This document shows positions 1,433 to 14,022 of a DNA stretch of 20,901 nt, one piece after another. The notes under the pieces are model-generated. The model searched no databases. It was not told the DNA's origin and was given only the letters and a program-made list of their open reading frames with translations. This DNA comes from a virus, in the IMG/VR virus record IMGVR_UViG_3300030104_002186, positions 1 through 20,901 of that record. One strand, given 5' to 3'. The position numbers and the translations under genes are program-made. Numbering within the stretch: the first letter of the stretch is position 1; each line of letters starts with the position of its first letter.

Positions 1433-1586
1433 ATTTCTTTTTCTTCTTTGGTTTTTCTATTTCGAAATATCTGTCCCTCAATGTTTGATTCAGTTTGCTA
1501 ATCTCTGTTTGAGTTAATTCATTTAATGGTTTTTTAATGTTTGTGACTGATACGCCATCCCATTTCTTTTTTATTATATAAGCCAT
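1425..1586 (-). CDS. Small basic hypothetical protein, 53 residues
   Basis: ATG at 1586-1584 opens 53 codons ending in TAG at 1427-1425. The product begins MAYIIKKKWDGVSVTNIKKP, continues LNELTQTEISKLNQTLRDRYF, and ends in a Lys run (KPKKKKKYD). A short beta-strand-like 'KWDGVSVT' followed by a 'LT..E+..L' helix is a pattern I have seen in small proteins encoded beside head genes in Bacteroidota phages, but it has no assigned role. It is the first gene after the intrinsic terminator at 1638-1661, and a TTTTATACTTAT element sits 12 nt before its start, so it probably begins a new expression unit that continues through the paralogs to portal. It overlaps the next ORF by 8 nt. Confidence 0.6.
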   Translation of the reverse strand: MAYIIKKKWDGVSVTNIKKPLNELTQTEISKLNQTLRDRYFEIEKPKKKKKYD

Positions 1587-1598
1587 AGCATCTTTATT

Positions 1599-1610
1599 AT
1601 AAGTATAAAA
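1599..1610 (-). promoter_or_regulatory. TTTTATACTTAT element, copy 1
   Basis: On the leftward strand this reads TTTTATACTTAT, preceded by GTAAC, 12 nt before the ATG at 1586 and just after the terminator at 1638-1661. It is identical in 12 of 12 bases to copies at 4010-4021, 5046-5057 and 14025-14036. A position after a terminator and before a new gene set suits a promoter. It resembles but does not match the Bacteroidota -7 box TAnnTTTG. Confidence 0.5.
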
Positions 1611-1637
1611 GTTACATTATTGTTTTTATTCCACAAA

Positions 1638-1661
1638 AAAAGGGGCAATAAAACCCCTTTT
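1638..1661 (-). terminator. Intrinsic terminator after the tail-tube candidate gene
   Basis: Read leftward, an 8-bp stem AAAAGGGG / CCCCTTTT with an 8-nt loop is followed by a run of seven T in total (CCCCTTTTTTTG). It starts 21 nt after the stop codon at 1683. The perfect G4/C4 stem, in otherwise A/T-rich DNA, with a T tract on the leftward strand is a textbook Rho-independent terminator. The plus strand also has AAAA/TTTT ends, so weak bidirectional action is possible. Confidence 0.8.
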
Positions 1662-1682
1662 CTTATATATAGAGAGTAGCAA

Positions 1683-2288
1683 TTATGCCTCTGTTATTGA
1701 TAAATTAGCTTCATCATCTAATCCATCAAACGGATATTTGTCTTGCCCTGGTGTTCCTGCAGGTAATACAATAAATGGTGCAAGTTCTTCTGCACTTAAT
1801 TCGATTGTAAATCCTGACATATCACCTTTTGCAACACCTGAAACAACTGTTCCACCCGTTACATCACAGCCATTATTATATCCTAATAAAAACACTTGAT
1901 TATTATTATCCTGAACAAAAATTTGAGGTCTTGCATAAGCTAACAATCTTAATTGATACGCTGTTGCAGACGTTATTTTTTGCAATGTCAAAGATAATGT
2001 TTGTGTGTAAAAAGTAGTACCATTAGCACTGTCTGCATTTACATTGATAGTCATAGAACTTAAATTAGGTCTCAATGCATATCTGTAAACCGTAACCGTG
2101 CCTGGCGCTGTTCCGTCAGATTTTTGCCACGTTGAAAATCCTGCATTAGTCATAATAAATGTATCAGCAGTTACCGTGTCTACCGACTCGATATTTTGGT
2201 AATATTCATTTGTGACGTAAACATATTTCAGCCCCCCAATTTGATCTTTGCAATCTACACCGATTGCCGCTGTTAAGTTACAACTCAT
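1683..2288 (-). CDS. Virion structural protein, candidate major tail (tube) protein
   Basis: A 201-residue soluble protein starting MSCNLTAAIGVDCKDQIGG at 2288. It is rich in Thr, Val and Gly. Recognisable segments are the N-terminal CNLT...DCKD, 'TTFYTQTLSLTLQKI' (about 91-105), 'YQLRLLAYARPQIFVQDNN' (about 111-129), 'VFLLGYNNGCDVTGG' and the end 'FIVLPAGTPGQDKYPF'. This set of motifs recurs in an uncharacterised structural family of Bacteroidota phages. An alternating beta pattern with 'L..L......FVQDNN..VFLLGY' suits a tail-tube or connector fold, but that is inference. The Cys after MS is not a lipobox, as no hydrophobic signal precedes it. The gene is isolated by intrinsic terminators on both sides (2317-2338 and 1638-1661), which suggests its own mRNA and high dosage, as expected for a major virion protein. 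Confidence 0.65.
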   Translation of the reverse strand: MSCNLTAAIGVDCKDQIGGLKYVYVTNEYYQNIESVDTVTADTFIMTNAGFSTWQKSDGTAPGTVTVYRYALRPNLSSMTINVNADSANGTTFYTQTLSLTLQKITSATAYQLRLLAYARPQIFVQDNNNQVFLLGYNNGCDVTGGTVVSGVAKGDMSGFTIELSAEELAPFIVLPAGTPGQDKYPFDGLDDEANLSITEA

Positions 2289-12235: not shown

Positions 12236-12790
12236 TTATTTTCCTATTATAATTTCTAATTCTTTATCTAAATCCTTCCCAAATGCATTTAATATAGCAT
12301 CTGTTTGTTTGTTTAATTCGCTTTTAAATGGTCTGCTAAAAAACTGTGTTCTTGTTAATCCTCTTTGATATATTGCTCTTTGTATTAAAAAACCTAAACT
12401 TTTATTAGTTATAAATTTTCCTGTTTCTTTATTTCTTCCTTTTATTCCTTTTTTTTTAATCCACTTTTGTATTGCACTTGTAAACTGTGGCCATTTACCT
12501 TTATACTTACCGCTACCAAATCTAAAAGGACTACCTTGCCCCCTCATTCTACCACTGCCCTTAAAACCACCTGCACCTTTAACACCTTCATCAACAAACG
12601 CCCAATAATCATCTGCTTTACCAAATTCAAATTCTAATGTTACACTATTTTTTGATGCTGTAACTAAATAATCAAAATCATTGTATAGTGTTCCACCTGC
12701 TTTTTTTTCCTTGTTAAGAATGTTTTTACCGTCCTTGACAACATTACCGCCAAGTTTCTGCATTGCTTGTATAGTATTTTTAAATTCCAT
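12236..12790 (-). CDS. Tail-completion/HK97 gp10-like protein candidate
   Basis: A 184-residue very basic protein. ATG at 12790 (MEFKNTIQAM) is preferred to the longer open frame because it sits in a TAATG overlap with the upstream stop; the ten residues further upstream (from 12820) run inside the upstream gene. The central 'YWAFVDEGVKGAGGFKGSGR' with 'SPFRFGSGKYKGKWPQFTSA', 'IQKWIKKKGIKG' and 'TGKFITNKSLGFLIQRAIYQ' is typical of a Bacteroidota phage family placed between tail chaperone and tail-tip genes. The 'F-V-D-E-G' element is also found in HK97 gp10-type tail-completion proteins, so that is the best guess. No membrane segment. Confidence 0.6.
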   Translation of the reverse strand: MEFKNTIQAMQKLGGNVVKDGKNILNKEKKAGGTLYNDFDYLVTASKNSVTLEFEFGKADDYWAFVDEGVKGAGGFKGSGRMRGQGSPFRFGSGKYKGKWPQFTSAIQKWIKKKGIKGRNKETGKFITNKSLGFLIQRAIYQRGLTRTQFFSRPFKSELNKQTDAILNAFGKDLDKELEIIIGK

Positions 12791-13284
12791 TAGCTGTTTG
12801 GGTTTACGGGTACAATGCAAAGATTGTTTTTGTTATTAACTTGCATACTTATTGTAGCTGACCATCCTGTTAAAAGATTATCAAATCTAGCTGTAAATGG
12901 TTCACAAGATATTGGAAGGTCTAATATAACTTCATCATCAACCCAACTTGTAGAATATAGGTTTTGATGAAACTCATTTATTACATCTTGCAGTATTTGT
13001 AGGTTTTCACTCAATGTATCTAATCTTCCTAATCTTTCATTGTTAGGTGCATCACCAACAATTTGGTCATTTATCATATCTAAAACATAAAGTGTAAAAG
13101 TATAAGTTAATGCACCTTTATCTACTGTTGCTGTTCCTGGCTCTGCATATAGGATAACGTAATCTTCTACACCAAGTTTGTTTATATCCACTTCGTCCAT
13201 AAAACCACTGTGAAAACTTTTAATTATTGTATGTTCTTTAGCTATTGTTTCTAAAAATCCTACTGCGTTTCTAAAAGTTATCAT
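12790..13284 (-). CDS. Minor tail / head-tail joining protein candidate
   Basis: A 164-residue acidic protein starting MITFRNAVGFLETIAKEHTI at 13284. The open frame extends upstream to 13335, but the ATG at 13284 is preferred: it lies 14 nt inside the end of the frameshifted chaperone frame and matches the expected family start ('M-I-T-F-+-x-A-[IV]-x-F-L'). Further features are 'HSGFMDEVDINKLGVEDYVI', 'ALTYTFTLYVLDMINDQ', 'RLDTLSENLQILQDVI' and a 'PFTARFDNLLTGWSATISMQ' beta C-terminus. This architecture recurs in Bacteroidota phages next to the gp10-like gene, and may be the analogue of tail-terminator proteins. Function is inferred from position. Confidence 0.62.
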   Translation of the reverse strand: MITFRNAVGFLETIAKEHTIIKSFHSGFMDEVDINKLGVEDYVILYAEPGTATVDKGALTYTFTLYVLDMINDQIVGDAPNNERLGRLDTLSENLQILQDVINEFHQNLYSTSWVDDEVILDLPISCEPFTARFDNLLTGWSATISMQVNNKNNLCIVPVNPNS

Positions 13285-13516
13285 AGTTATTCTTTTGTTT
13301 GTTATTAAAATCCATTGTATAAGACAAATATGCAAACACCTCTAAAATAGGTAGTCTTGTAATTTTACTTATGTTGAGTATATTATCGTTACTCAATGAA
13401 AACAAAACATTGTACCAGCCCCATTTGCTTTGCAAACTTATACCTTTTGTGCTTTCATTTCCTGTGCTTTCAAATAATTGTGCGAAATCCAAGCTAATTC
13501 TTTTCCTAAAGTCAAA
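13271..13516 (-). CDS. Downstream frame of the tail assembly chaperone, expressed by -1 frameshift
   Basis: This frame continues the chaperone after a -1 shift at the T9 run (13522-13514) and ends in TAA at 13273-13271. It adds 81 residues (FDFRKRISLDFAQLFESTGN, 'LQSKWGWYNVLFSLSNDNIL', 'ISKITRLPILEVFAYLSYTM'), giving a predicted 250-residue fusion. The frame has no ATG before its last 15 codons: the only upstream initiation possibility is a TTG at 13555, inside the chaperone gene, so independent expression is unlikely. 'W-G-W-Y-[NG]-[VI]-[LI]' followed by 'L...+I+.+..+..LPI.EV+.YL.+..D' is the kind of domain that follows the frameshift in lambda gpG-gpT-type tail chaperones. It overlaps the next gene by 14 nt. 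Confidence 0.7.
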   Translation of the reverse strand, partial: FDFRKRISLDFAQLFESTGNESTKGISLQSKWGWYNVLFSLSNDNILNISKITRLPILEVFAYLSYTMDFNNKQKNNYDNF

Positions 13517-14022
13517 AAAAAACCTAGACTGTTTAATGCAATATCCATAGGGCAATCTTTAAATAGTTCTTCTTTAAATTCATCAGGGTTATAATCCTCA
13601 ATAGCATATCTCTCATTCCTTTTAAAAGTAATTTTCCTATATAGTATTGACATAATAATATGCAAGTTTTTAATTGGTTCTTTACAATATGTTTCAAGAT
13701 CAATATATTCCCCCGTTGTTATTTTAGAAAGATTAGGCACAAAACCATATTCTTCTTTTTTAAACATAAACTTTTTTTTAAAATCTTTTTTGTCAGGCTC
13801 TGTGTCAACTAATTGCTTTATAATTTTTATAATATCTACCAAATCAGCATAGCTCATTTTTCTAACTATTTGAGGTGTAGTATTACATAATAACGCAATA
13901 CTTTTAACTATTTTATTTTTCTCGCTTTCTTTGCTCTCCTGTGTTTTAATGTATTCCTGATATGTTCTAATATTTATATCTGACCAGTGGTCAGGTATTA
14001 AAAGTTTAATGTCCTTCATCAT
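13438..14022 (-). CDS. Tail assembly chaperone (lambda gpG-like frame)
   Basis: A 194-residue helical, charged protein with ATG at 14022 (a second ATG follows at once: MMKDIKLLIPDHWSDI). It lies directly after terminase and, through small genes, upstream of the tape measure. 'DHWSDINIRTYQEYIKTQES', 'IALLCNTTPQIVRKMSYADL' and 'YGFVPNLSKITTGEYIDLET' are recurrent in an uncharacterised family of Bacteroidota phages at this spot. A T9 run encoding G167-F168-F169-L170 makes a perfect slippery heptamer, and the -1 frame continues for 81 more codons. That arrangement is the hallmark of tail assembly chaperones such as lambda G/GT. Without the shift the protein ends KAQEMKAQKV. The 12-mer TTTTATACTTAT sits only 2 nt before the first ATG. 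Confidence 0.72.
   Translation of the reverse strand: MMKDIKLLIPDHWSDINIRTYQEYIKTQESKESEKNKIVKSIALLCNTTPQIVRKMSYADLVDIIKIIKQLVDTEPDKKDFKKKFMFKKEEYGFVPNLSKITTGEYIDLETYCKEPIKNLHIIMSILYRKITFKRNERYAIEDYNPDEFKEELFKDCPMDIALNSLGFFLTLGKELAWISHNYLKAQEMKAQKV
13516..13522 (-). promoter_or_regulatory. -1 ribosomal frameshift slippery heptamer T-TTT-TTT
   Basis: Read leftward in the chaperone frame the codons are GGT TTT TTT TTG, so T-TTT-TTT fits the X-XXY-YYZ rule for -1 slippage exactly. Re-reading base 13516 continues as TTT GAC TTT AGG into an 81-codon frame. Only nine T are present; I saw no convincing pseudoknot just downstream by eye. Confidence 0.68.

Follow-up and report, generated by a model that had tools for sequence, protein, structure and literature searches.

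The question raised by this locus is whether a run of nine T's near the end of an open reading frame (ORF) serves to join two protein domains encoded in different frames, which machine would slip there, and what the joined protein would be. The window, that is the whole stretch of DNA analysed, is a 20.9-kb IMG/VR virus record, and the phage is ascribed to marine Bacteroidota. Its minus strand carries an ORF of 194 codons (14022-13438, the 0 frame), in which the codons at the site read CTA GGT (13524-13522) TTT TTT TTG (13515-13513) ACT. The first-pass annotation, made from the sequence, had read GGT TTT TTT TTG as holding a phased T_TTT_TTT heptamer, followed by a -1 frame open for 81 codons that would yield a 250-residue fusion. 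Both readings were confirmed: the heptamer lies at 13522-13516 of the ORF, and the -1 frame, read from 13516, stays open for 81 codons until its stop codon at 13273-13271, giving a predicted fusion of 169+81 = 250 aa. The features of the site are the following.

13438 to 14022, minus strand: 0-frame ORF, short chaperone-like protein (194 aa including its tail, stop 13440-13438), with a PHROG 32199 match and an AF2 model of residues 1-169.
13514 to 13522, minus strand: T9, the candidate slippage run, within GGT TTT TTT TTG, from sequence and conservation.
13516 to 13522, minus strand: T_TTT_TTT heptamer in the X_XXY_YYZ phase of the 0 frame, from sequence.
13271 to 13516, minus strand: -1 frame C-terminal domain, 81 aa, FDFRKR...KWGWYN..., stop 13273-13271, conserved as protein in the -1 frame.
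13438 to 13513, minus strand: 0-frame tail past the run, overlapping the -1 domain, near neutral expectation as protein in pairwise comparison.
13409 to 13426, minus strand: KWGWYN motif, the best-conserved stretch of the -1 domain in the comparison of relatives.
13433 to 13435, minus strand: TTG right behind the 0-frame stop, at which a free C domain may start as a minor product (ATG in 85/99 close relatives).

T9 or A9 runs are not rare in such AT-rich DNA (two were seen in the window, versus 7.7 expected from dinucleotide shuffles), and the significance of the T9 run therefore rests on its conservation. The second 9-base homopolymer, at 12449-12457 (+), is A9 on the minus strand and encodes KKK (AAA AAA AAA) in the neighbouring ORF 12236-12820. 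It is present in two relatives, broken in four others, and probably incidental.

Relatives were picked by protein patterns, such as KWGWY and an N-terminal motif, and not by the T-run. About 210 loci in viral contigs gave 175 distinct fusion sequences, the window included, which form 18 groups below 65% identity (representatives at least 35% apart). The window's own clade, clade A, has 99 members; a distant group has 62, and the Nonlabens-type phages number 12. Cultured relatives are the Nonlabens phages P12024L and P12024S, whose records list each half as a hypothetical protein of its own. A search of Bacteroidota genomes (up to 1,089) gave three relevant genomes in all. One prophage-like locus of Galbibacter pacificus carries a homologue, and an HMM search of bacterial genomes added two more loci, which align over their full length with the family profile at ~18-20% identity.

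The first-pass annotation had proposed, as a check, a comparison of the run and of both frames in homologues, and the outcome was uniform. The C domain was in the -1 frame in all 175 distinct fusions, and the run at the junction was T9 in 153 and T10 in 22; it was never shorter than nine, no T7 or T8 being found there. The two relatives at ~18-20% identity have T9 at the site too. The heptamer was in the X_XXY_YYZ phase in 175/175. Throughout clade A, GGTTTTTTTTTGANTTTA is invariant down to the wobble T of its Gly codon, whereas another Gly codon, four codons later, varies freely. Across the relatives the run occupies each of the three codon phases (GGT TTT TTT TTG; [GC]TT TTT TTT T[AG]N; TTT TTT TTT CT[GC]), the T10 form of the site being [GA]TT TTT TTT TT[CG], a possible bridge between phases. 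At least 6 changes between phase and length classes are required on the tree, a small number drawn from related sequences that are not independent. On this comparison the conserved property is the length of the run, at least nine T's in any phase, and not the heptamer alone.

We compared the protein conservation of the two frames with an expectation obtained by randomising the synonymous codons of the 0 frame. After such randomisation the -1 frame stayed open in 12% of cases for clade A, and in 0-0.6% for the four groups with long overlaps. All pairs tested were more alike in the amino acids of the -1 frame than expected (60/60 for each of the three largest groups). Past the run, the 0-frame tail stayed about at expectation; some groups lay slightly above it, and Nonlabens-like groups below. 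This indicates that the functional reading switches frame at the run. Judged by these comparisons, the conserved protein beyond the run is that of the -1 frame, not of the 0 frame, and the 25-aa tail of the 0 frame is probably dispensable. The alignments thus support a programmed, deeply conserved frame change that joins two domains at the T-run.

The same -1 domain could also be made without any fusion, as a separate gene starting at an ATG or TTG just past the 0-frame stop, by overlap or re-initiation. According to the first-pass annotation the -1 frame had no plausible start, and homologues with an ATG of their own would speak against a fusion. The claim held for the window, where the codon in question is TTG (13435-13433) and the sole ATG of the -1 frame falls within its last 14-15 codons, but it failed for most close relatives: an ATG stands a few bases past the 0-frame stop in 85 of the 99 clade A members, and nearby in 12/12 Nonlabens-type phages, whose gene 41 is annotated from it. 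That ATG is nevertheless missing from 13 other members of clade A, at least eight clade A members having TTA or CTA at its position, and it is not a feature of the large distant group. There the 0-frame ORF contains most of the -1 frame, and 60/62 sequences lack an ATG in the stretch from the previous -1 stop to KWGWY. In 32/62 neither ATG, GTG nor TTG occurred, and in these a separate gene is excluded because no possible start codon exists. Furthermore, the -1 frame upstream of the putative ATG is conserved as protein, and viral single chains of 234-258 aa, matched by the AlphaFold models of both domains, cover the two together (A0A516L611, A0A6J7XA66, A0A6J5N3F3 and A0A6J5SVK3; for all but the first, the C domain matches weakly, and homopolymer errors may be present in some records of this kind). 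With start codons absent in many relatives, we rejected a separate downstream gene as the general explanation and consider it highly improbable, although clade A phages may make the C domain on its own as well, for instance by re-initiation. As T-runs are error-prone, and as single-frame relatives may exist (unahavirus 23T/FPSV-D15, a weak match), the locus might also be one ORF broken by a homopolymer error of assembly or sequencing. However, the frame relation is identical in 175 distinct sequences, two isolate phage records and a Galbibacter genome. This breadth rules out error as a general explanation, and its probability is negligible.

Two genes outside the set of fusions deserve mention. 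A second locus of Galbibacter pacificus (L222, locus 1471-2097, minus strand) holds a single-frame gene directly behind a terminase gene. By hhalign, its C-terminal portion is similar to the -1 domain (E 6e-6), and it is possibly a relative with both domains in one frame; no relatives of it were found in viral contigs. In Flavobacterium phage 6H (L223, 9990-10960), indels interrupt a gene that 23T (L226, 834-1715) and FPSV-D15 carry as one 293-aa ORF. Phage 6H was given no weight as a frame-shifted relative, because the split looks like indels and the homology is weak (hhalign prob 18%); its sequence may hold errors at this gene.

In the scheme that we propose, ordinary expression would give the short protein, made of the 169-aa N domain and the 25-aa tail, and at T9 a fraction of expression would move to the -1 frame and yield a 250-aa product in which the 81-aa helical C domain follows the N domain. 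Every T9 contains the phased ribosomal heptamer, and sequence alone cannot separate the two machines. For the main mechanism we lean towards RNA polymerase slippage rather than ribosomal -1 frameshifting, because the run is kept at nine or more in any phase, no structure lies downstream, long A/T runs are avoided elsewhere, and T7/T8 heptamers are tolerated. The host RNA polymerase would add one U on the T9 template (U10), and ordinary translation would then enter the C domain. Some ribosomal -1 slippage may come in addition from the in-frame U_UUU_UUU.

The avoidance of long runs was measured in 557 other genes (434 kb) of related phages, a set that includes mutual homologues, so that the following counts are not fully independent. 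An in-frame T_TTT_TTT occurred 41 times (33 T7, 8 T8 and no run of nine or more). Runs of at least nine T's were absent, versus 3.5 expected. Runs of at least nine A's, surveyed in the genes of loci L002-L216 and of the window, numbered 24 versus 96.6 expected from synonymous shuffles, a four-fold depletion seen in every codon phase. The depletion of A-runs sets in sharply at nine (A8, 68 versus 86 expected; A9 and longer, 24 versus 97). Long A/T runs are thus avoided elsewhere in these phages, yet a length of 9-10 is always kept at the junction. The pattern is the one that Baranov et al. ascribed to selection against transcriptional slippage, an avoidance that shows from nine A/T upwards in many bacteria (PMC1088944). 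Replication slippage could be another cause. No RNA structure was detected within 115 nt downstream of the run (47 sequences, mean z 0.03; alifold 0 kcal/mol in clade A; nested structures only), and a search of Rfam gave no match. Downstream of ribosomal -1 sites, a stimulatory structure is common, but not obligatory.

A canonical ribosomal -1 frameshift, by tandem slippage of tRNA-Phe at U_UUU_UUU, is the reading to which the first-pass annotation had come, and the extra T's would then be by-products of coding or boosters of slippage. The frame change and the phased heptamer of that reading both stand, the correct phase of the heptamer in every fusion speaks for it, and tail chaperones offer precedents, with ribosomal -1 shifts of low efficiency (PMC5009743) and of 6-7% in HK97-like cases (PMC3711429). 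Moreover, flanking T's may be partly fixed by hydrophobic residues. However, seven phased T's would be enough for the ribosome, and none of the 175 sequences has seven or eight; the total length is held at 9-10 while the codon phase changes; ordinary genes of these phages tolerate in-frame T7/T8 heptamers; and no stimulatory structure was found. We regard a purely ribosomal shift as a serious candidate that falls somewhat short of probable, and polymerase slippage fits the conserved run length and the lack of RNA structure better.

What the two proteins do was approached through sequence, fold and gene neighbourhood. The 0-frame protein matched PHROG 32199 (E 2.9e-11), labelled unknown function in the database; this family covers the 0-frame protein and includes neither the frame change nor the C domain. 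The C domain gave nothing significant against Pfam or PHROG, and no tail-assembly-chaperone family of either was matched by sequence. AlphaFold modelled the N domain (residues 1-169) with confidence (AF2 pLDDT 89, pTM 0.81), and the C domain as a helical structure of modest quality (pLDDT 72). Searches of the PDB by sequence and by fold gave no significant match. Foldseek against viral models returned mostly unnamed proteins; its matches to proteins annotated as tail assembly chaperones were weak (E=0.019 and 0.45; ctCpR1 E=0.019, ctgFB34 prob 0.99). The gene directly follows that of the terminase large subunit (PF04466/PF17288), and a likely tape measure gene (PHROG 1538, E 8.5e-4) lies ~6 kb further on, so that it does not occupy the λ G/GT-type position between the major tail protein and tape measure genes.

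On the strength of the two-form architecture, we favour a gpG/gpGT-like role for the two forms, as paired tail assembly chaperones, and consider it probable. The first-pass annotation had named such a chaperone; architecture and weak fold similarity agree with it, whereas the place beside the terminase, the distance to the tape measure and the lack of a match to any curated chaperone family do not. These latter points would suit a real fusion with another function, for example a different head-tail or packaging accessory, which would fit either slippage machine. Such a protein seems rather unlikely to us, since tail assembly chaperones typically come in two overlapping forms, the longer with a helical C extension, the weak fold matches point the same way, and no other candidate with two frames came to notice in this partial genome.

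Tail-chaperone frameshifts are textbook ribosomal recoding. Those of λ and HK97 are already known (PMC5009743, PMC3711429) and, as in λ gpG/gpGT and HK97-like chaperones, a short N-domain protein would here be accompanied by a rarer -1 fusion with a C-terminal domain, the overlap lying, as in λ, close to the end of the first ORF. Unlike in λ, where the site is G_GGA_AAG, the run here is T9/T10 with its length conserved in all phases, the gene stands beside the terminase and not the tape measure, and no sequence similarity was found. In Shigella mxiE and spa13, RNA polymerase slips on a homopolymer, and the resulting mRNAs fuse a second, out-of-frame segment (PMC5009743, PMC1088944). The present run is predicted to act in the same way, and it shares with mxiE-type sites an A/T length of at least about nine regardless of phase and the avoidance of such runs elsewhere. 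The Shigella genes belong to bacterial secretion systems, whereas the gene studied here is part of a phage structural module and its mechanism is inferred. In open-licence papers we found neither a report of transcriptional slippage for a tail chaperone nor a description of a far-conserved, probably polymerase-made chaperone version depending on T9/T10. The closest known counterparts are genes 40/41 (and 38/39) of Nonlabens phages P12024L/P12024S, with homologous N and C domains, T9 in the same place and the same -1 relation. Their run has another phase (CTT TTT TTT TAT), and they are annotated as two hypothetical proteins, in keeping with the expectation that the frameshift of this presumed chaperone had gone unannotated.

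If this family does use polymerase slippage, a simple rule for annotation would follow as well: in Bacteroidota phages, T9 or more just before a -1 frame, after the terminase gene, would mark a domain that present annotation overlooks or treats as a gene of its own. The Nonlabens phages, together with their host, allow a direct test of the mechanism. We tentatively propose that a widespread group of Bacteroidota phages may make a two-form tail chaperone by polymerase slippage on T9/T10, and not by a λ-like ribosomal frameshift. If polymerase slippage is at work, the same need, a fixed ratio of short to long chaperone, would be served by a different machine, and if the proposal is true, the ratio of the two chaperone forms would be set during transcription.
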